Origin: Spirulina subsalsa CS-330
GTDB lineage: Bacteria > Cyanobacteriota > Cyanobacteriia > Cyanobacteriales > Spirulinaceae
Assembly: GCF_028330765.1 (NCBI RefSeq)
Contig: NZ_JAQMTY010000240.1
Coordinates: forward strand, 1 to 37,069
Reading direction: 5' to 3'
Length of the DNA stretch: 37,069 bases
A program made the translations under genes and the position numbers. Every line of letters begins with the position of its first letter. The stretch's first letter is position 1. The notes under the pieces were generated by a model that was given only the letters and a program-made list of their open reading frames with translations, searched no databases and was not told where the DNA came from. Positions 2,443 to 17,435 of this stretch are shown here, piece after piece.

Positions 2443-4332
2443 CTATTCAATCCACACCTCCTCTTGAGGGGTCATCGCCGCTAACATATAGGGTGTTAAA
2501 CGTCCGAGAATGGTATTCCCCGTCACCATACCATCGCCCTGGGATTGGCAAATTTCGAGGGCATGATCGCGGGAATTCAAGGCAAAATCCTCAGCCACAA
2601 TCACCAAGGATAGCGGCTTTGTATTGAGGGTAAAATTGAGCTTGATTGTGACCCGTCCCGTCACTGCGCAATCGTTGAGATTATCGAGGACGACGAAAAA
2701 GCCACGGGAATTGTCAAGAAAGCGTTGGTAAGGCAGATGGTGGGTCGCCCGCATCCCCCAGGAGAAAAATTCCAGTTCTGGGGTAAAGGGTCGGAATTTC
2801 GAGGTTTGGGACTGCATTCGGAGAATGAGCAGATGGCTGATCTGGCGGGTTGCGATCGGATCAGCCCCATCCACTTCTACTAATGCTTCGATTTCAATGC
2901 GCCGCTTGGCAGGGACATTAAACAGGTGGAAGTTATAGAGTGTTTCTTCCCATTGGGAGGTCGTCACCAGGCGCATCGTATGACCGATCGCAGGGCCGAG
3001 GCGCGTGTTGCCGATCTTGTATTCACTGTTGGGAATACAGACCTGAAGCGGCTGTGCGTCGGCATTCCTGGGGAGTCGGAAGCCCTGGCCCACCTCAAAA
3101 CCAAGGCGGGTATTGCCCTGCATTTGGTCGGGTCGGGGGCGGGGCTGGTAGATGCGGAGGCGGGCATCGTGAACTAGGCGCATCGTGTTACCGATCGCCG
3201 GGCCAAGGCGCGTATTGCCGTCGATGGGGCTGATCTGGGCGCGATGAAGTTCGAGGGGGGGCGCAGACTGGAGCCGGAAGCCTTGACTGCCTTCAGGGTT
3301 GAGGCGGGTATTGCCGGGCATCGCGGTGAGGCGGTTGAGGGGGCGATAAATCCGGAGGTTAGGCTGGAGGGTAAAGGGTGCATCGAACACAGGGGCGGTA
3401 AATGGCTGCTGGTTGAGGTTAAAGTGCAGCGTGACGCTGAGGGTTCCGGAGAGGGTTTCATGACTCAAATTCGCCAACGCCACAAAGAACCCCGTGGGAT
3501 TTTCCAAAAGTTTTTCATAAAACACCGTCTGGCGCACCACCGGCCCCAATTGGCTCCCCTGCGGCTCAAGAACTGACGTTTTACCCTGAATCCGGATTAA
3601 AATTTGCTCGGCCAGCCGAGGATCAAAAGATTCATCTAGGGTGACACGGGCTTCCACCGACACAATCTGCTGCGGCGGTTGATCAAACATCGTCAACGGA
3701 TAGCAGCCCCCCCAGGTTTTGCTGATGTGCATCGTCAGGGTGAGAATCCGCAGGGCATAGAAGGTATGGGCGGGTTTCTCTTCGTTGATAATCGCCTGGG
3801 CGGCGCGGCATTCTCGCCAGTAGCGATCGGGCTGTAAAACCTGATTGCTGGGTAAGACTAATTGCACCTGAAAATAATGGGGGCGATTGTCGAATTCAAT
3901 AACGGAAATCGTGCGATCGGGATAGCTCAACCCCGAATGTTCCAGATAAATCGAAAGCATTTTTTTCAGCCCCCGCACCGTACCGCGAATGCGATACAAC
4001 GGCACCATCTGGCTAATAAATTGCCGCTTCACCGCCTCATCCCAATCCTCCCGCAAACTCAACGCAATCCAACCCGCCAGCCAGGGCAAAAATTCCGCCG
4101 GGGTCTGTTGGGGGTCAAGATAGGTATGGATCTGCCCGATGATCGTTTCTAAGCCATAATTCGCCCCCGACTCACGGGTGATGATTTGGGGCTGAAAGGG
4201 TTGGGGTTCATGGTCAGGCACACCCGTGAGCACCTGCTCAAAGGCGAGTAAGAATCGCCCCAAAAACGGATCGGTCTGGAGATAGGCGGGAAGATAATCA
4301 AGATAGTGGCTTAGGGGGTGTTGGGTTGCCAT
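2443..4332 (-). CDS. Tail-protein-I-like baseplate protein with internal GNTRL repeats
   Basis: A 629-residue protein; GGAGA precedes the ATG, which overlaps the upstream gene by 22 bp. Residues 1-200 match the phage tail protein I-like region of eCIS loci (TIGR02242 type): LPAYLQTDPFLGRFL near the start, ESGANYGLE, PWLAGWIAL at 83-91, RIRGTVRGLKKML at 114-126. A beta domain at about 223-305 (GFFVALANLS, TLHFNLN) is echoed by a second at about 477-570 (GFFVVLDNLN, KLNFTLN). Between them are four GNTRL repeats (340, 372, 406, 441), with a degenerate GNTIL at 605. Known family members sit at the baseplate periphery and connect to fibres. The extended C-terminus looks like an accessory structural or binding module; its target is unknown. 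Confidence 0.85.
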   Translation of the reverse strand: MATQHPLSHYLDYLPAYLQTDPFLGRFLLAFEQVLTGVPDHEPQPFQPQIITRESGANYGLETIIGQIHTYLDPQQTPAEFLPWLAGWIALSLREDWDEAVKRQFISQMVPLYRIRGTVRGLKKMLSIYLEHSGLSYPDRTISVIEFDNRPHYFQVQLVLPSNQVLQPDRYWRECRAAQAIINEEKPAHTFYALRILTLTMHISKTWGGCYPLTMFDQPPQQIVSVEARVTLDESFDPRLAEQILIRIQGKTSVLEPQGSQLGPVVRQTVFYEKLLENPTGFFVALANLSHETLSGTLSVTLHFNLNQQPFTAPVFDAPFTLQPNLRIYRPLNRLTAMPGNTRLNPEGSQGFRLQSAPPLELHRAQISPIDGNTRLGPAIGNTMRLVHDARLRIYQPRPRPDQMQGNTRLGFEVGQGFRLPRNADAQPLQVCIPNSEYKIGNTRLGPAIGHTMRLVTTSQWEETLYNFHLFNVPAKRRIEIEALVEVDGADPIATRQISHLLILRMQSQTSKFRPFTPELEFFSWGMRATHHLPYQRFLDNSRGFFVVLDNLNDCAVTGRVTIKLNFTLNTKPLSLVIVAEDFALNSRDHALEICQSQGDGMVTGNTILGRLTPYMLAAMTPQEEVWIE

Positions 4333-5309
4333 TGGTCTCCAAAACGTTGCAGGGTGGGTAAGGCGGCGATCTGAATCTGTACCAGTTCGTGGGCTTGGAG
4401 CATCAGACCCACCAATTGACCGTGATCGTTAAACTGTTGCCGCATCGGGTCTACTCCCGTCAGTTCAATATCTTCTACATGGTCAACACCGGGCAGGTCA
4501 TCGAGGAGTTGATAAAGCTCCGACAGATAAATATCCGCGCCAAAGGGATAGCCTTGACCTTGCCAAAATTCCTCAGAATCCAAGGGGGCAAAAAAAGCGT
4601 GAATCTGACGCTCGGCCTCGCGGCGGACATCGGGGGGTTTGGCACTGTCCTGAAGGTAGAGGGTGGCGGCTAGGGTCATGGTGACGAAACTGGGTTCTAC
4701 CACATGGAGCCGAGTGGTAATCAAACGGCGTTGGTCTAGGAAGCGTTTGAGATCCTGACGCAGACGCTTCCCCTCCGCTGCATCGGTCAGAGGATGGCGG
4801 GGCAGAATGACGAGGCTGATATGGGCTTCAATGGGTTGATTAATATCGGCGTTTTCTAGGTCGCGTTCGGGTAGGCAGTTGACCCGTGCGATCGCACCGG
4901 CTGCGCCAAATTCGCGCTGGGCATATTGGGTTTTCGCCCAATCGGAGAGAATGAGTTGCTCAAAATCGGGATTGGTGACGGCGCGATAGGGTCGTCGCAG
5001 GTCAGCAAGGGTGGTTTGGATTTCGGTTTGAACGAGGGTGAATTGCTGGGCGGGGCTGAGGTCGGGGGGCAAGACCCAGGGCTGACCTTTGAGGAGGCTT
5101 AAAAATTGGGCTTGGTTTTGTTCCGGCACTTGATTGACTCGGTAGAGCACCATTTCCGTGAGCCAGGCCAGGAGTTCAATGAGGATGATCCCGGTGTCGG
5201 CGGGGTTGTGGTCTGTCCATTCGGGGGCTTCGATGGGAATTTGGGCGATCGCATCTACCACCAAATCAGCGTAGGTGCGATCGTCGAGGTCGGGTAAAGG
5301 AATGGGCAT
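4311..5309 (-). CDS. Baseplate J-like wedge protein, short paralogue
   Basis: A 332-residue protein whose start (LPDLDDRTYADLV, ADTGIILIELLAWLTEM, YRVNQVPEQNQAQFL) matches the N-terminus of the 1206-residue neighbour, as in eCIS baseplate assembly proteins (TIGR02243/gpJ-like). The middle and C-terminus have J-like elements: DFEQLI, LVILPRHPL, a helix rich in RRE, and a final segment with DDLPGVDHVEDIEL. It should form the wedge that closes round the hub, probably as a heteromer with the long paralogue. It starts 3 bp after the long J gene and overlaps the next gene, so it is translationally coupled. It is about a quarter of the length of its partner. Confidence 0.85.
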   Translation of the reverse strand: MPIPLPDLDDRTYADLVVDAIAQIPIEAPEWTDHNPADTGIILIELLAWLTEMVLYRVNQVPEQNQAQFLSLLKGQPWVLPPDLSPAQQFTLVQTEIQTTLADLRRPYRAVTNPDFEQLILSDWAKTQYAQREFGAAGAIARVNCLPERDLENADINQPIEAHISLVILPRHPLTDAAEGKRLRQDLKRFLDQRRLITTRLHVVEPSFVTMTLAATLYLQDSAKPPDVRREAERQIHAFFAPLDSEEFWQGQGYPFGADIYLSELYQLLDDLPGVDHVEDIELTGVDPMRQQFNDHGQLVGLMLQAHELVQIQIAALPTLQRFGDQWQPNTP

Positions 5310-11097: not shown

Positions 11098-11748
11098 TCA
11101 ACTCAAAATCGGTAAGGGTGGAATGGTGAGCACCAATCCGGGGGTGATTTGGCGCGGATTGTAGAGCCGATTTTCATCGGCAATGATTCGCCACAACGCC
11201 GGATCACCGAATTCTTCCTGGGCAATGCTGCTCAGGGTTTCGCCCCGCTTGACAATGCGCACCGGGTCGTCAATCAGGTTTTCGGCCTTTTTGCGTTTTT
11301 CGGGATCGGCCCATTCCCGGAAGGTGCAGTCAAGGGTGGCGCGAACCGGTGTGCCGTCTTCCCAAAAGTGGGTCAGGGTTTTGGTGATGCTTTCGAGAAA
11401 CCCATCGGGGAGCAGAATATTACTTTTGCCGCCAATTTTGCCCCACACCAGTTTGCAGCGGGGCGGCCGCTTTTCACTTTTCCCGATCTTCGGATGGGTA
11501 AGGTTAAAGATTTTTTTGGTATGTTGCTGGACGTTGTCCGGTGGATCGCCGCTCAGGGTGGTGTCAAAAAACAGGGTGATGCTCAGGCTTGCCAACTCTT
11601 CGGAGGCATTGGGATAACCGTCTTGATTGAGAGACCACCCGGTTTTGTTAATCGTGACCTGGTTGGGGTTGAAAAGCACCTCGATTTCTTCGGCAAAGTC
11701 GCCTTCGTTGTCTTTTTCGGCTTTGATTTTGAGTTTTTCTAGCGCCAT
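11098..11748 (-). CDS. LysM-containing tube/baseplate adaptor (Afp7-like)
   Basis: A 216-residue protein; GAGGAGG precedes the ATG, which overlaps the long repetitive gene by 10 bp. Residues about 20-150 match the eCIS tube-associated N-terminal domain (EIEVLFNPNQVTINK, SITLFFDTTL, PRCKLVWG). Residues about 165-212 are a LysM motif (VKRGETLSSIAQEEFGDPAL, then WRIIADEN and PGLVLTIPP). In Afp7/gp53-like proteins this LysM domain is structural, gluing wedge to tube initiator, rather than a cell-wall hydrolase. Intact and of normal length. Confidence 0.92.
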   Translation of the reverse strand: MALEKLKIKAEKDNEGDFAEEIEVLFNPNQVTINKTGWSLNQDGYPNASEELASLSITLFFDTTLSGDPPDNVQQHTKKIFNLTHPKIGKSEKRPPRCKLVWGKIGGKSNILLPDGFLESITKTLTHFWEDGTPVRATLDCTFREWADPEKRKKAENLIDDPVRIVKRGETLSSIAQEEFGDPALWRIIADENRLYNPRQITPGLVLTIPPLPILS

Positions 11749-14700
11749 TGCCGTTGTCCTCCTCGTCGTTCACGTTCTACAACTAATCGTTTCAACACTT
11801 TCCGCTCCACTTTGGCGACGAGATCATCGATGTTGACGGCTGCCGGGGTTGTCTGCTTTGCCACTTGGGGTGTGGTGGATTTCAGCCGTTGCCCTGCGGT
11901 GGAACTGCTTTGCTGGCCGGGGGATGCGATCGCTGGGGGTGGGTTGGGCAGGGCTGGACTGACGACCACGGGACTGCTGGGGGTCTGGCTACGGGGCTGT
12001 GCATGGATCTCCTGACTGACGGCGGTGCGGTGCGATCGCACCAGCGGACGGGACAACACCAGCGGCTCCAGGTTTTGCGGGTTAAATTCTGTTTGCGCCT
12101 GGACGGTGGGTAAGGGGGCCATCGGTGGGGTCGCCGTCACTGTTGGGTTGCTCTGGGGGTTACCTATGATTTGGGGTTGGGGCGTTGGCGTAGGCCTGCC
12201 GGAGGGATATCGCGATCGGGTTTCTGAGGGTTGAAGGGGTAACACCGCTGTCTTCTGGCCAGGGGAAATGGGGGAGGTTAGTCCCTGGGTTGCGACTTTT
12301 TGGGGTTTCTGCCCTTGGGGTCTGACCACGGGTTGCGGTATCCGTTTTGACTTGTTGGTGATCTTGGGAGATGCTTGTTCTCGCTGCGGAGATGCTGCTT
12401 TTGAGGGTTGAGCTTGGGCTGTTATCCCTTGGGCCGTGGGGGTATTGGACGATCGCTCAACATGACGGGACAATAGCTCTAAGCCCTGTTGCTCGTTGCT
12501 GGCTGGATTCGTCTGTGGTGGAAGGGGTTGAGCGATCGCCCTCGGTAACGCTGGCGTGGCTGATGCTGCCGTCGGGTTTGCCGCTAGGGAGGTCGTTACC
12601 ACCAGCTCTGGGCTGGTGTTTCTGCCTATCTCTGCATTGACCAGGGGGGGGATGGGTTGAGAGATTTCCACCGCTTGCGCCCTTGACCCAGGATGGTTAG
12701 CATCCCTTGATGTTTGCACCTTGGGCGTTGCCGCTGTTTGGGGCATCTTTGCTGTTTCAGACTCATTCGGCAGAACGAAAGTAAAATCCTGTCCCTGTTC
12801 TGAAGGGGTTGCTAAGGCTTGAGGTGAGATTGTAGCCCGGTTCGGTACGGCGATCGCCCCTGACGGTTTCGCTCCATCGGATTGATCCCCCTCAAGCCGG
12901 TTTAAGCCCAGGAAAATCGGCTGATCTTGGGGATATCTGCGATCGCCGCCGCCCAGAGGAACAACCGTTTCCAGCGCCTTGGGTGGGGTGGGTAACTCAC
13001 TCCCAAGGCTGGTTAGAGCATTCAGGGGGTTAAACAATCTGTGGAGCGGTGGGGTAGAGGCCGATGGAGGAACAGCGGTGACAGCCGGGAGCAATAGCGC
13101 TGTTGGGGGGGGGAGATCTGGCGAGGTCATCCCCACCGGCCCAGTGGTGAGGGGGTCAGCGATCGCGTTCGAGGCGGCAAAATTGAGGGGCGTGAATCCC
13201 GATGGATTGGGGCCGATTCCTGACCCCTCGGATGGGGCAATCACCGGAACGGCTGCACCCGTTGCAAACTTGGCTTGAATGATCCCCTCAGTTGAAGCAT
13301 GGGTCTGAATCGTGGGTAAGGCGGCGGTTTGGGGTTGAGAGTCTGGTGTGTTTGGGGGGTGGAGTGATGGCGTACTCTGGGCTTCACCAACATTCAGGGC
13401 CTGGATTGCGCGTTTGCCTTTCTCTGTTGGGGTGTCTATTCCGGTTGATGTGTTGCGAACGGATGGGCGGATGTCTGCGATCGCACCACCCATCGGGGCG
13501 GATGGTTCCGAACTAGCGGATGGTTGCACCAATGGCATGGACTCTGACGCGGGAGATGCAGAATCAGGACTGAGGGGAGTTGTCAGGGCTTCAGGCGGGG
13601 CAGATTGCGCTGGGCTAGGGGCTTGACGGGGTGACTTTTTGGGTGAACGAGCGCCCTTTTTGGAGATCTTAGGGACACTTTGACGCTCTAACCCAGAACG
13701 CCCCGGTTCATTGTCACTAATGGCGGGTGGCATTTGGGCCAGCGGTAGATCACCACGAGAGGGGGCGCTGTTGGGATGATCCAAGCTCAACGCAGCCTGC
13801 ATCACCTTGGGATCAAACGCCGGATTTTGGGTGGTGGATGTTTCCGGTGGATCAATGGGGGAAACCGTGGCGGATGATAGCGATTCAGTAGCCTGGACGG
13901 GGGCGATCGTGTTGCGATCTGCTCCCACATCCAGCGGCTGGACTTGGGTGACTCCGGTCTCTAGCTTGGCTTGAATTACATCTCTGGTCTGGCTTGTGGG
14001 CGTGCCAAGGGGGGCGATCGCTCCACCCATCGGGGCGGATGGTTCTGAACTCGCGGATGGTTGCACCAAGGGCATGGACTCTGACGCGGGAGATGCAGGA
14101 TCGGGACTGAGGGGAGTCGTCAGGGCTTCAGGCGGGGAAGATTGCGCTGGGCTAGGGGCTTGACGGGGTGACTTTTTGGGTGAACGAGCGCCCTTTTTGG
14201 AGATCTTAGGGACGCTTTGACGCTCTAATTTGGAATGCTCTGGTTCATTGTCACTGATGGCGGTTGGCATTTGGGCCAGCGGTAGCGTATCCCCTGTTAG
14301 GTCAGGTTTTGGATGATCCAAGCTCAACGCTTTGACCCCCGATTCATTGGACACCGCAAGAACTTGTGTCAGGGCAGGTTCTGGATGATCCAAGCTCAAC
14401 GCAGCCTGCATCACCTTGGGATCAAACGCCGGGTTTTTGCGGATGGATGTTTCCGGTGGATCAATGGGGGAAACCGTGGGGGCTTGCAGCGATTCAGCAA
14501 CCGGAGCGGGGGCGATATTGTTGCGATCTGCGCCAACAACATCCAGCGGCTGGACTTGGGGCGATCCAGTCTCTAGCTTGGCTTGAATTACATCTGTGGT
14601 CTGGCTTGTGGGCGAACCGAGGGAGGCGATCGCTCCACCCATCGGGGCGGATGGTTCTAAACTAGCGGGCGATCGCACCGGATCACCCTTGACCCTCGCT

Positions 14701-15890
14701 TGCTTTTTGCCTTGCATGGCGGACGGTTCCGAACTAGCGGATGGTTGCACCAAGGGCATGGACTTTGACGCGGGAGATGCAGGATCGGGACTGAGGAGAG
14801 CCGTCAGGACTTCAGGCGGGGAAGATTGCGCTGGGCTAGGGGCTTGACGGGGTGACTTTTTGGGTGAACGATGCGCCTTACTTTTGGAGATCTTAGGGAC
14901 GCTTTGACGCTCTAACCCAGAACGCATTGGTTCATTGTCACTAATGGCGGGTGGCATTTGGGCCAGCGGTAGATCACCACGAGAGGGGGCGCTGTTGGGA
15001 TGATCCAAGCTCAATGCAGCCTGCATCACCTTGGGATCAAACGCCGGATTTTGGGTGGTGGATGTTTCCGGTGGATCAATGGGGGAAACCGTGGCGGATG
15101 GTAGCGATTCAGTAGCCTGAACGGGGGCGATCGTGTTGCGATCTGCTCCCACATCCAGCGGCTGGACTTGGGTGGCTCCGGTCTCTAGCTTGGCTTGAAT
15201 TACATCTGTGGTCTGGCTTGTGGGTGAACCGAGGGGGGCGATCGCTTCACCCATCGGAGCTGAGGAATCGGACGGCGGGAAAGACTCAACAACGGGCATC
15301 GGGCCCAGGGTGGGCGAATGCGGTGGGGGTTCAGGCGCGATCGCCTGGGGTGACACCGGAGCCGTTATCGATTCGGGCGGCACTGACCCTCGATCCGGTG
15401 CAGGGGAAGATTGCGACAGTTTCCCCTGATCCTGAGCAGTGGGCAATGTCTCTGGGTTGGGCGGTAGAGGTGGCGTGAGGTTCCCCAGGTTCCCCGTATC
15501 GGTTCCGCGTTGCGGAGCTTGGGACGGCTCAACGCGAGACAGATCCGGCGGGATCGAGGGTTGCATGGGTGTGGCAACGGCAATGGGCAAATCACCCTCC
15601 CCTGTATCCGTCTGATCCTTGCCTTGGACTCGCTGGGGTTGAGCTTGCGGCCCATCATCGGCGGCTGACTGATCCGCCTCGTTGACTTGAGCATAGACAA
15701 TGGGGATATCTTCGGTTTCGAGATCGGCGATCGCTGACCACCGCGCCAACTGTTGATCCAGCAAGGGCAACCGATTCACCAAACGCTCGGCACGATCAAT
15801 CAACCGATCCGCCATCCGATGATTCGTCACACCGGGTTGGTGGATGGGTCGTGTTAGCCGCTGTACCAGTTTGGGGTCAAGATCCATCAC
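11739..15890 (-). CDS. Very long Pro/Ser-rich repetitive eCIS protein, function unknown
   Basis: A 1383-residue protein. GTG at 15890 is followed directly by an ATG, and either could start it. Only the ends look folded: residues 1-65 are helical (LVQRLTRPIH, MADRLIDRAERLVNRLP), and the last 32 residues form a basic helix (DDLVAKVERKVLKRL, VERERRGGQRQWR). The 1280 residues between are low-complexity and Pro/Ser/Ala/Gln-rich, with three long tandem repeats at residues 213-799. It lies between tube gene 2 and the LysM gene. I recall a basic VERER-type C-terminus on proteins at this position in other eCIS loci, so the helix may dock to the baseplate or tube. Options are a ruler/tape measure, a lumen or surface linker, or an anchor. 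It lacks the long helical coil of usual tape measures. Confidence 0.8.
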   Translation of the reverse strand: MMDLDPKLVQRLTRPIHQPGVTNHRMADRLIDRAERLVNRLPLLDQQLARWSAIADLETEDIPIVYAQVNEADQSAADDGPQAQPQRVQGKDQTDTGEGDLPIAVATPMQPSIPPDLSRVEPSQAPQRGTDTGNLGNLTPPLPPNPETLPTAQDQGKLSQSSPAPDRGSVPPESITAPVSPQAIAPEPPPHSPTLGPMPVVESFPPSDSSAPMGEAIAPLGSPTSQTTDVIQAKLETGATQVQPLDVGADRNTIAPVQATESLPSATVSPIDPPETSTTQNPAFDPKVMQAALSLDHPNSAPSRGDLPLAQMPPAISDNEPMRSGLERQSVPKISKSKAHRSPKKSPRQAPSPAQSSPPEVLTALLSPDPASPASKSMPLVQPSASSEPSAMQGKKQARVKGDPVRSPASLEPSAPMGGAIASLGSPTSQTTDVIQAKLETGSPQVQPLDVVGADRNNIAPAPVAESLQAPTVSPIDPPETSIRKNPAFDPKVMQAALSLDHPEPALTQVLAVSNESGVKALSLDHPKPDLTGDTLPLAQMPTAISDNEPEHSKLERQSVPKISKKGARSPKKSPRQAPSPAQSSPPEALTTPLSPDPASPASESMPLVQPSASSEPSAPMGGAIAPLGTPTSQTRDVIQAKLETGVTQVQPLDVGADRNTIAPVQATESLSSATVSPIDPPETSTTQNPAFDPKVMQAALSLDHPNSAPSRGDLPLAQMPPAISDNEPGRSGLERQSVPKISKKGARSPKKSPRQAPSPAQSAPPEALTTPLSPDSASPASESMPLVQPSASSEPSAPMGGAIADIRPSVRNTSTGIDTPTEKGKRAIQALNVGEAQSTPSLHPPNTPDSQPQTAALPTIQTHASTEGIIQAKFATGAAVPVIAPSEGSGIGPNPSGFTPLNFAASNAIADPLTTGPVGMTSPDLPPPTALLLPAVTAVPPSASTPPLHRLFNPLNALTSLGSELPTPPKALETVVPLGGGDRRYPQDQPIFLGLNRLEGDQSDGAKPSGAIAVPNRATISPQALATPSEQGQDFTFVLPNESETAKMPQTAATPKVQTSRDANHPGSRAQAVEISQPIPPLVNAEIGRNTSPELVVTTSLAANPTAASATPALPRAIAQPLPPQTNPASNEQQGLELLSRHVERSSNTPTAQGITAQAQPSKAASPQREQASPKITNKSKRIPQPVVRPQGQKPQKVATQGLTSPISPGQKTAVLPLQPSETRSRYPSGRPTPTPQPQIIGNPQSNPTVTATPPMAPLPTVQAQTEFNPQNLEPLVLSRPLVRSHRTAVSQEIHAQPRSQTPSSPVVVSPALPNPPPAIASPGQQSSSTAGQRLKSTTPQVAKQTTPAAVNIDDLVAKVERKVLKRLVVERERRGGQRQWR
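13494..15254 (-). repeat. Three long in-frame tandem repeats within the 1383-residue gene
   Basis: Units begin at the Met codon of an APMG motif: 15254-14643 (612 bp), 14642-14031 (612 bp), 14030-13494 (537 bp); a fourth, quickly diverging start is at 13493. Each unit runs in the order APMGGAIA, DVIQAKLETG, PLDV, PIDPPETS, PAFDPKVMQAALSLDHP, LAQMP.AISDNEP, LERQSVPKIS, SPKKSPRQAPSPAQS, LVQPSASSEPS. Unit 2 has an extra ALSLDHP copy and unit 1 a KKQARVKGDP insert. All lengths are multiples of three. Every unit start carries a GCGATCGC octamer. Confidence 0.92.
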
Positions 15891-15911: not shown

Positions 15912-16394
15912 TTAATTATTCTTCTGAACTTTTTGTTCATAAATCCCGCGATGCACCAACTCCATTCGCTCAAATGCGACCTCTGTGCCCGTACTTGCAT
16001 TTAATTGTGGCCCTTCCCAAGCCACCGGATAGGCCTTAGAAATGCGCCAAGCGATCGCATCCGACTGTTGACTATCTTTGAGAATAATCGTGGCGTTTTT
16101 AAGCTCCACCTTGCCACGGGTTACATCTTGATACCACTTCCATAAATCATCCCGCTCCGCCAAACCACGAACTAAGACTAAATTCGGAGAATCCACATAT
16201 GTAGGAAAGCGGTGAACCCGATGGTTCATGCCCCCCTCCACATATTCTTCTAGCTCTATTCTGCTGCTCAAGCCCTGCACCTCAGAAAACCCCCCCACCG
16301 TTATCCCTTTAATCTCAACGATAAAGTTAAAGGGCATATAGGGATCACGGGATTTTTCTTGATCATTGCCGCCTTTTTTTTGAGATTTAGCCAT
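15912..16394 (-). CDS. Tail tube protein 2, gp19-like (Afp5-like tube initiator)
   Basis: A 160-residue member of the T4 gp19/eCIS tube family (TIGR02241 type). Seen are DPYMPFNFIVEI, the GGFSEVQGLSSRIELEEYVEGG stretch in two parts, LVLVRGLAERDDLWKWY, and a C-terminal AFERMELVHRG. A charged N-terminal extension (MAKSQKKGGNDQEKSRD) is not in the first tube protein. In Afp and PVC the second tube gene supplies the ring that starts the tube on the baseplate, and its place just before the baseplate genes fits. It is separated from the first tube gene by the chaperone-like/DUF6760 pair. Confidence 0.9.
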   Translation of the reverse strand: MAKSQKKGGNDQEKSRDPYMPFNFIVEIKGITVGGFSEVQGLSSRIELEEYVEGGMNHRVHRFPTYVDSPNLVLVRGLAERDDLWKWYQDVTRGKVELKNATIILKDSQQSDAIAWRISKAYPVAWEGPQLNASTGTEVAFERMELVHRGIYEQKVQKNN

Positions 16395-16447
16395 AGCTAT
16401 CTTGATTCAATCAGTTAATTCACAGCAAACCTGAAACTGTCTTGCCT

Positions 16448-16648
16448 TCAAAATCGTTTTTTCCCGGAATCTTGGTTAATTTTTTGATTAATCTGAGCCA
16501 CTTGTTCAACCCATTGTTGCCGCTCCCAATGTTCCATCTCCATCACATTTCCATAGGACCAATGAAAGTGATAAGACAGGTAAGCTACCTCCTCAAGTAA
16601 ACGCTTGTGGGGGTAGCAGGCTACTCCCCCACCGGCGCGGTCTCCACT
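16448..16648 (-). CDS. DUF6760-type small eCIS ORF, probably reached by -1 frameshift
   Basis: The frame is open from 16648 (an in-frame TGA is at 16651-16649) to TGA at 16450-16448. From 16615 it encodes 55 residues: YPHKRLLEEVAYLSYHFHW, then SYGNVMEMEHWERQQWVEQV and a basic tail ending KKRF. The EEVAYL.YHFHW core and EHWERQQWV match the small DUF6760 family found between tube genes of eCIS loci. No ATG, GTG or TTG codon occurs between the upstream stop and this conserved N-terminus; the first GTG/ATG codons (after the FHW core) would delete it. The frame is -1 relative to the overlapping upstream gene, so production as a fusion to that protein (about 178 residues in all) is the simplest reading. 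Coordinates are those of the open frame. Confidence 0.75.
   Translation of the reverse strand, partial: SGDRAGGGVACYPHKRLLEEVAYLSYHFHWSYGNVMEMEHWERQQWVEQVAQINQKINQDSGKKRF
16607..16645 (-). promoter_or_regulatory. Candidate programmed -1 ribosomal frameshift signal
   Basis: Reading the minus strand: GGAG (16645-16642), 12 bases, then GTG GGG GAG TAG, where a five-G run (16630-16626) allows the GGG-decoding tRNA to re-pair one base back. After slipping, the next codons are GGA GTA GCC TGC TAC, entering the DUF6760 frame. A hairpin spans the site (GTGGGGG, AG bulge, TAG, loop CCTG, CTACCCCCAC; 16632-16607). The GGAG spacing is close to the 10-14 bases of known bacterial -1 stimulators. Not proven; the A-site codon does not re-pair perfectly. 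Confidence 0.5.
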
Positions 16649-16983
16649 TCAAACTCACCATTACAGTGAGGGCAAGCAACCCGAAACCGGGTATGACCAT
16701 TTTGGTTAATGCGTTGATAAAAATCTTGGAGGTAGGCTAAATCACCGGAAAACAACTCCTCAATAATTTTGGTATTGAGTTGGTCGATTGTGCCCAATCT
16801 CGTGATCACCCTCGCGAGGAGAATAATCACGAGATAGCCTGAATTTCGCTGTACCCTCGGATCGCGTAACGGCGTAATTTCATCACTCGCCCGCGAGAGC
16901 CGCATGACTCCTTCACGATGCAAAATCCCTTCCGCATCAAGATAACCATGGGGGAGTGTAAAGGGAAATTCAGTTTGGTGCAT
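16621..16983 (-). CDS. Small eCIS tail-assembly (chaperone-like) protein
   Basis: A 120-residue protein starting 11 bp after the first tube gene. It opens FPFTLPHGYLDAEGILHREG, followed by MRLSRASDEI and PLRDPRVQRN; a hydrophobic helix YLVIILLARVITRLG (50-64) and LAYLQDFYQRIN follow. The end has ACPHCNGEFEVE with a single CxxC. Proteins of this pattern recur next to eCIS tube genes and resemble phage tail assembly proteins in size and position; the function is inferred only. The two-frame arrangement with the following ORF recalls the lambda G/GT tail chaperones. It would be a cytoplasmic assembly factor acting on the tube or the long linker protein. Confidence 0.75.
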   Translation of the reverse strand: MHQTEFPFTLPHGYLDAEGILHREGVMRLSRASDEITPLRDPRVQRNSGYLVIILLARVITRLGTIDQLNTKIIEELFSGDLAYLQDFYQRINQNGHTRFRVACPHCNGEFEVETAPVGE

Positions 16984-16994
16984 GACTTGCTCCG

Positions 16995-17435
16995 TTAACC
17001 AATCGTCACACCTTCATGAACCAATTCCAATGATTCAATCGCCACATCACTGGCGGTTGCATTGAATTCAGGGCCGTTCCAATTGGTGGGCCAGCAATTT
17101 TCGAGGTTCCAGCGAATTAATTCTTCCCCTTTATCGTCGGCCAAAATGATCGAAACATTTCGCCGTTCAGTCTCACCTCCGAGCATTGTCTCCAGCCATT
17201 CCCAGAGTTCATTATTGTCTGTCATGCCGCGCTGAAGGCTGATGTTGCCATGACTATTCAGGCCCGGCAGTTGGCGTTGGGCAAGATTTTTATCGGTTCC
17301 TTCTCGATAGAGTCCGGCTTCACGGGTGCTGGTCAAACCGCTACATTCTCGGAAGCCTGCATGGACAATGCCGTCCCATTCCACCCAAAAGTTATAACCG
17401 TTATAGGGATCATGGGTGTCTTTAATATTAGGCAT
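16995..17435 (-). CDS. Tail tube protein 1, gp19-like (Afp1-like main tube)
   Basis: A 146-residue tube protein with AAGGAGA upstream of the ATG. Family marks are DPYNGYNFWVEWDG, AGFRECSGL, SLQRGMTDNNELWEW, and the C-terminal AIESLELVHEG. Together with the second tube protein it marks a two-tube eCIS. This one follows the sheath genes directly, as Afp1-type tube proteins of the hexameric inner tube usually do in this class of loci, and has a good ribosome binding site, as expected for the more abundant subunit. Intact. Confidence 0.92.
   Translation of the reverse strand: MPNIKDTHDPYNGYNFWVEWDGIVHAGFRECSGLTSTREAGLYREGTDKNLAQRQLPGLNSHGNISLQRGMTDNNELWEWLETMLGGETERRNVSIILADDKGEELIRWNLENCWPTNWNGPEFNATASDVAIESLELVHEGVTIG

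Follow-up and report, generated by a model that had tools for sequence, protein, structure and literature searches.

An eCIS locus with two small overlapping frames

The window, meaning the whole 37,069-base stretch of DNA analysed here, is a complete contig of a 4.7-Mb genome. Its minus strand carries genes for a Pvc16-type cap, two sheath proteins, a gp19 tube protein, a 120-aa protein, the DUF6760 frame, a second gp19 tube protein, a 1383-aa low-complexity protein, a CIS tube/LysM protein, GPD, base V, gp25, Baseplate_J and Tail_P2_I. The co-location of sheath, gp19, CIS tube/LysM, GPD, base V, gp25, Baseplate_J, Tail_P2_I and the Pvc16-type cap identifies the locus as an extracellular contractile injection system (eCIS). 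A second Baseplate_J match, at 4311-5309, scores under its cut-off. The features discussed below are as follows.

16995..17435, minus strand: first tube protein, gp19 family (PF06841, E 3.4e-43)
16621..16983, minus strand: 120-aa tail-assembly-chaperone-like gene, frame 0 (PHROG 508 'tail assembly chaperone', E 4.5e-5)
16642..16647, minus strand: Shine-Dalgarno-like GTGGAG upstream of the heptamer, on weaker evidence (anti-SD pairing peak)
16624..16630, minus strand: candidate slip heptamer G GGG GAG (G5N here in 228/255 distinct junctions)
16584..16617, minus strand: downstream hairpin, arms GCTACC 16617-16612 and GGTAGC 16589-16584 (-16.4 kcal/mol, z -3.1)
16448..16648, minus strand: DUF6760 open frame, stop to stop, in the -1 frame (PF20546, E 2e-14)
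15912..16394, minus strand: second tube protein, gp19 family (PF06841, E 8.9e-36)
11739..15890, minus strand: 1383-aa low-complexity protein at the phage tape-measure place, candidate ruler (place compared with P2 gene T; C-terminal motif in relatives)
11098..11748, minus strand: CIS tube/LysM hub protein (PF19266, PF01476)

The 120-aa gene ends at TAG 16623-16621, and the DUF6760 frame (53.8 bits, against a curated cut-off of 27) follows an upstream stop, TGA 16651-16649. The initial annotation had placed this frame at -1 relative to the 120-aa gene, overlapping its end, and had seen no ATG, GTG or TTG between the upstream stop and the conserved core. The coordinates confirm both points: the first possible starts, a GTG and then an ATG, lie inside the core, after HFHWSYGN. 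Read after a slip, the DUF6760 frame would begin at GTA 16624 and supply 58 residues. The small chaperone-like gene and its -1 extension lie between a tube gene and the candidate tape-measure gene, which is the G/GT-type arrangement.

The predicted model of the 120-aa protein (pLDDT 86.5) gave, in a fold search of the PDB, the HK97 tail assembly chaperone 2ob9 as its top match (E 0.048), with none at or below 0.001. In BFVD the best viral matches are T4-like baseplate hub assembly proteins (best E 1.2e-7); according to PMC5009743, T4 has no G-T shift. Profile comparison of the chaperone with P2 gpE found no similarity. DUF6760 is predicted to form three helices (pLDDT 88.5) and resembles phage P2 gpE' in sequence: the gpE' family PF06528 matches 6/14 DUF6760 members (best E 0.0028), and hhalign gives a probability of 84.6 and a P-value of 6.8e-6. 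One DUF6760 member is also matched by UPF0181 (E 0.0036). Across the 80 loci retained from viral contigs, relatives of P2 gpE' showed 98-100% identity. A BFVD fold search with DUF6760 returned nothing at E <=0.001, and its list has tape-measure or tail assembly chaperone names at ranks 5, 13 and 37. An NCBIfam search gave zero matches. Among PDB sequences nothing resembles the chaperone or DUF6760, though eCIS tubes are present there, which is indirectly what would be expected of chaperones that leave the particle.

For the 1383-aa protein, a Pfam search gave no family. Its counterparts in relatives range from 268 to 1383 aa and have a middle part of low complexity and, at the C terminus, a conserved motif, approximately LxxQVxxxxxRKLxVERERRG. 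Such a protein follows the second tube gene in 8/13 loci read downstream (L366, L367, L368, L373, L374, L375, L377 and L378, the motif being looser in L377). Papers on Streptomyces and haloarchaeal eCIS state that a typical tape measure was not found, and the low-complexity protein may be the ruler reported missing in those systems.

Candidate slip heptamer and reading register in relatives

Relatives were collected in several searches. The DUF6760 profile found 27 places in 22 of 60 related genomes and, within the class, a match in 106 of 388 genomes. Around four named loci, phylum samples gave matches in 19/296 (Saccharopolyspora kobensis), 14/246 (an ANME-1 archaeon), 6/299, three of them over the cut-off (a Ramlibacter MAG), and 21/251 (a Chloroflexi MAG). 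A GTDB pattern search yielded 520 confirmed places, of which the best 80 were kept; the titles of these best 80 name Chloroflexi, Planctomycetota, Deltaproteobacteria, Nitrospirota, Myxococcota, Saccharopolyspora, Kitasatospora, archaea and others. Removal of identical junctions reduced 277 usable loci to 255 distinct ones. The window's second copy (L001), three loci below the cut-off (L260-L262, with no core in L261) and one at a contig end (L132) were dropped before counting, and two class-search matches below the cut-off (G218 and G393) stand outside the counts. The same genome as the window also holds a second, diverged DUF6760 junction (L026, G000:C229:38283-38399), likewise with GGGGGA and the stem.

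The G run of the window occupies 16630-16626, in the frame-0 context GTG GGG GAG TAG. A slip heptamer stands in the correct register before the frame-0 stop in the window and at one and the same place, a G5N sequence 15 nt upstream of the first Tyr codon, in 228/255 junctions (GGGGGA in 193, GGGGGG in 32, GGGGGT in 3). Another 20 have slip-type variants: a G5 site three nucleotides farther upstream (4), G GAA AAG (4), G GGA AAN (10) or G GGG AAR (2). Six of the ten G GGA AAN junctions come from the archaeal search and one is a fusion locus, L013; the six archaeal loci have G GGA AAY in frame, as G GGA AAC in Haloferax larsenii. A single junction, L233 with G GGG CGA, is ambiguous. Since the pattern query started at GG codons and so favoured the site, profile-found loci were counted separately: G5N is at the exact place in 162/187 of these (162/181 of the main type, six being loci with their own start codon), against 66/68 of those found by pattern. 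As a gauge of chance, 31/22267 places in the upstream codons of the relatives' genes have GGGGG in this register. The base before the GGG codon is G in 246/249 cases, where codon use in the same genes predicts 91.4, an excess that indicates selection on the heptamer.

With a separate profile used to locate the chaperone, DUF6760 lies in its -1 frame in 196/202 distinct junctions. Among the exceptions, the two share one frame in L013 and in L104, the latter disrupted upstream, and L041 and L116, both disrupted upstream, have the third frame; in L111 and L169 the profile found no chaperone. The slip site is retained in L041, L104 and L116 although the chaperone frame is disrupted. In a later set, 58/65 rows show the -1 relation, the remainder being L238-L241 and L260-L262. 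L013 (G049:C117, DUF6760 match 62576-62698) is a natural in-frame fusion of 151 aa from its ATG, the only one among the 255 junctions, and GGGAAAG persists near its joint. The initial annotation had suggested cyanobacterial eCIS loci as the place to check for such conservation; across the relatives, slip site, register and downstream hairpin prove conserved far beyond cyanobacteria, and a nearby start is missing in most.

RNA features around the heptamer

Stimulatory structures of -1 sites usually lie 5-9 nt downstream of the slip site. The spacer between the heptamer and the downstream hairpin of the window is six bases, and the hairpin fits such a structure in position, z score, codon constraint and covariation. 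Among 218 loci of a Tyr-Pro type, the stem joins bases -3..+3 with +26..+32 around the Tyr codon. Codon choice within it departs from background: Val is GTA in 199/207 (background 221/1630), and the other arm codons are TAC in 208/218 (392/912), CCC in 180/218 (319/1030) and GAG in 211/218 (877/1931). The codon before Tyr is NGC in 216/218, though the residue may be Gly, Ser, Cys or Arg. Because stem codon choice is held, and NGC is kept across four residues, we read the constraint as acting on the RNA; the NGC and GTA counts led us to reject a plain overlapping gene under protein constraint alone.

The outermost stem pair covaries, with 173/218 paired against 130.5 expected (0/10000 permutations, kinship being ignored), and at the sixth pair nine of ten T's stand opposite A. 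In 47 diverse sequences there are 9 doubly changed cells against 3.0 after shuffling (0/500), a covariation carried by two pairs only, and sliding by +3 also gives 9. A further 21 loci, of an ACGTAC type (11 actinobacterial, 10 from the Chloroflexota search), have a different stem in a different register at the same place, with 11 of 12 pairs formed in at least 19/21. A covariance model of the RNA site found 27 places in 60 genomes, identical to the 27 of the DUF6760 profile, its signal being partly coding and some of the places belonging to its training set. An Rfam search of 16300-16900 at E 1 gave no match.

The initial annotation had described a hairpin spanning the region; one exists, but the conserved hairpin sits 3' to the G run and extends beyond the region first indicated. 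A 63-nt stretch covering most of the G run folds unremarkably (z -0.98). The fold favoured by RNAalifold pairs the G run with CCCC in the 5' arm, with no doubly changed pairs; as the CCCC arm is moreover absent from ACGTAC-type loci, a hairpin containing the G run was rejected as the conserved stimulator. Within 16630-16606 of the window (minus strand), base pairing between the G run plus spacer and the 5' arm is possible (GGGGGAGTAGC with GCTACCCCC) instead of the conserved hairpin. The G-run pairing would be opened by a ribosome sitting on the slip site, so the two structures could alternate, and a switch between them is conceivable.

The five-G run and upstream GGAG of the initial annotation are both present (GGAG at 16645-16642), eleven rather than 12 bases apart. 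Over 228 loci, pairing with the anti-SD sequence peaks in 8-mers that begin 15-21 nt upstream of the G run, with a mean of -4.06 at -15 against -0.23 over -105 to -45. Codon choice gives the Shine-Dalgarno-like element moderate support (GTG 82/112 against 795/1755; GAG 93/124 against 827/1581), and GAC, at 7/21 against 594/1300, goes against it. Much of this signal may be explained by protein conservation.

Interpretation and comparison with phage tail chaperones

The features at the junction very probably constitute a programmed -1 ribosomal frameshift signal in eCIS, joining the 120-aa chaperone to DUF6760. This reading, already put forward in the initial annotation, gains support from the comparison, in which slip site, register and downstream hairpin are all conserved. 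By analogy with phages, the two frames are best read as a G/GT-type chaperone pair.

The main alternative, which we consider unlikely, is that DUF6760 is a separate protein, made by coupling or reinitiation from a weak or unusual start, with the G run as its ribosome-binding site. The start codons bear directly on this. No ATG, GTG or TTG occurs within 45 nt upstream of the first Tyr codon of the core in 184/249 junctions, the window included, and in 137/249 there is none anywhere back to the in-frame stop; in the other 65/249 a candidate start is present inside those 45 nt, mostly at -6 or -9, and a separate protein could use it. Six of the 255 junctions (L238-L241, L243 and L244), all recovered in the actinobacterial phylum search, have a start of their own and no usable slip site. 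Here an ATG or GTG stands 9-12 nt before the Tyr codon and overlaps the stop of the upstream open frame, as expected under coupling. The chaperone profile matches that frame in L243 and L244. In L241 the chaperone stops 24 nt short of the Tyr codon, and L238-L240 gave no match to the profile. L239 has a G run at -21, three codons' length away, beside its own start, and was counted with the own-start loci. Homologues with a clear start plus ribosome site and no conserved slip site were what the initial annotation had named as evidence against slippage; these six have a start and no usable slip site, while most relatives have no nearby start. The own-start loci offer a natural contrast for whether fusion is needed. 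Haloferax larsenii has both its in-frame heptamer and an ATG overlapping the stop, so that the two routes are indistinguishable there.

In favour of a separate protein, DUF6760 is listed as a gene of its own in 8/18 plasmid records with a match; it is covered by no listed gene in 7/18 and only by the chaperone in 1/18, and 2/18 have no annotation, the PLSDB gene tables being incomplete. The lack of a start codon is probably why the DUF6760 half so often goes unannotated. Against a separate protein, the codon at -9 is often ATC, ATT, ATA, GTC, GTA or GTT (198/249), with the G run abutting it, and a ribosome-binding site that ends directly at the start is too close. A separate protein would also leave unexplained the fixed register of the heptamer, the third-base G and the stem.

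Slippage of RNA polymerase on the G run, whereby some mRNAs with an altered number of G's would join the frames, is very improbable. There is a homopolymer in most loci, but the run is only five G's long in 193/255, and the G GAA AAG and G GGA AAY sites keep the ribosomal pattern with no long run. A conserved downstream stem also suits ribosomal slippage better than slippage by polymerase. A single insertion or deletion would yield such a pair of frames, and L013 does hold both in one frame, but the same frame relation in almost all distinct junctions and at both loci of the window's genome makes a sequencing error or decayed gene scarcely credible, and with the arrangement conserved we rejected assembly error and pseudogene.

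Under programmed ribosomal frameshifting, we infer a slip at a rate that would leave most ribosomes to stop at TAG 16623-16621 and release the 120-aa chaperone. A fraction, held up at G GGG GAG by the hairpin, would move back one base. In a tandem slip, tRNA-Gly would stay on GGG and tRNA-Glu would shift from GAG to GGA with one G-U pair. Slipped ribosomes would continue into the DUF6760 frame and produce a fusion of about 178 aa. The predicted tryptic peptide across the joint in the window would end APVGEVACYPHK after a tandem slip or APVGGVACYPHK after a P-site slip. On the model of lambda G/GT and P2 E/E+E', we would expect the short form to cover the protein that determines length and the fusion to bring in tube subunits through its DUF6760 part, with neither product remaining in the finished particle.

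Since relatives across many bacterial phyla, and archaea too, show the same signal, eCIS probably assemble with the help of a two-product pair of this kind. More tentatively, and with somewhat less than even confidence, we suggest that the frameshift with its dedicated hairpin is ancient and near-general in bacterial and archaeal eCIS, that the chaperone ratio meters assembly, and that the low-complexity protein is the ruler. eCIS are widespread cellular machines, and control of their length and assembly is what is at stake here. If the frameshift reading is right, an overlooked chaperone pair is an eCIS assembly factor, the fusion would go unnoticed wherever expression constructs or annotations handle the two frames as independent genes, and bacterial and archaeal cellular genes share a widely conserved -1 frameshift. 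A review (PMC8211752) names one demonstrated case in an archaeal cellular gene.

Frameshifting at -1 in phage tail chaperones is well known, and the eCIS instance appears new: we found no earlier report of frameshifting in eCIS in the open-access PMC literature. In the main text of the eCIS and tailocin papers PMC8213781, PMC11566945, PMC10066040, PMC12237407, PMC11329794 and PMC12210884, 'frameshift' occurs 0 times.

One close counterpart is the E/E+E' pair of the phage P2 FETUD operon, annotated in its record as a -1 frameshift between tube and tape-measure genes. The initial annotation had compared the position of the eCIS frames with that of phage G/GT, and the gene order agrees with that of P2: the record runs FI, FII, E, E', T, U, D, and eCIS likewise have sheath, tube, chaperone and DUF6760. 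P2 differs in slipping on a T run, and eCIS differ from P2 in having a second tube gene after the chaperone pair. Lambda G/GT is likewise a short chaperone with a -1 extension before the tape measure, as described in PMC5009743, which also gives the roles of gpG and gpGT, their 30:1 ratio and a higher efficiency in P2; the transfer of these roles to eCIS is by analogy. One eCIS locus, L107, has the heptamer G GGA AAG at its site, a likeness to lambda, whereas in most eCIS the heptamer is G GGG GAR and is accompanied by a conserved hairpin. For actinophage chaperones, the text seen of PMC10885494 describes a GGGGGAA heptamer and the same G-U account; that case concerns phages, and 'contractile' occurs 0 times in that text. 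The g-t genes of the haloarchaeal viruses HCTV-1, -2 and -5, also treated in PMC5009743, have among their sites G_GGA_AAC and G_GGA_AAG, which are like the G GGA AAY of archaeal eCIS-type loci, although these are viruses and not cellular injection systems.
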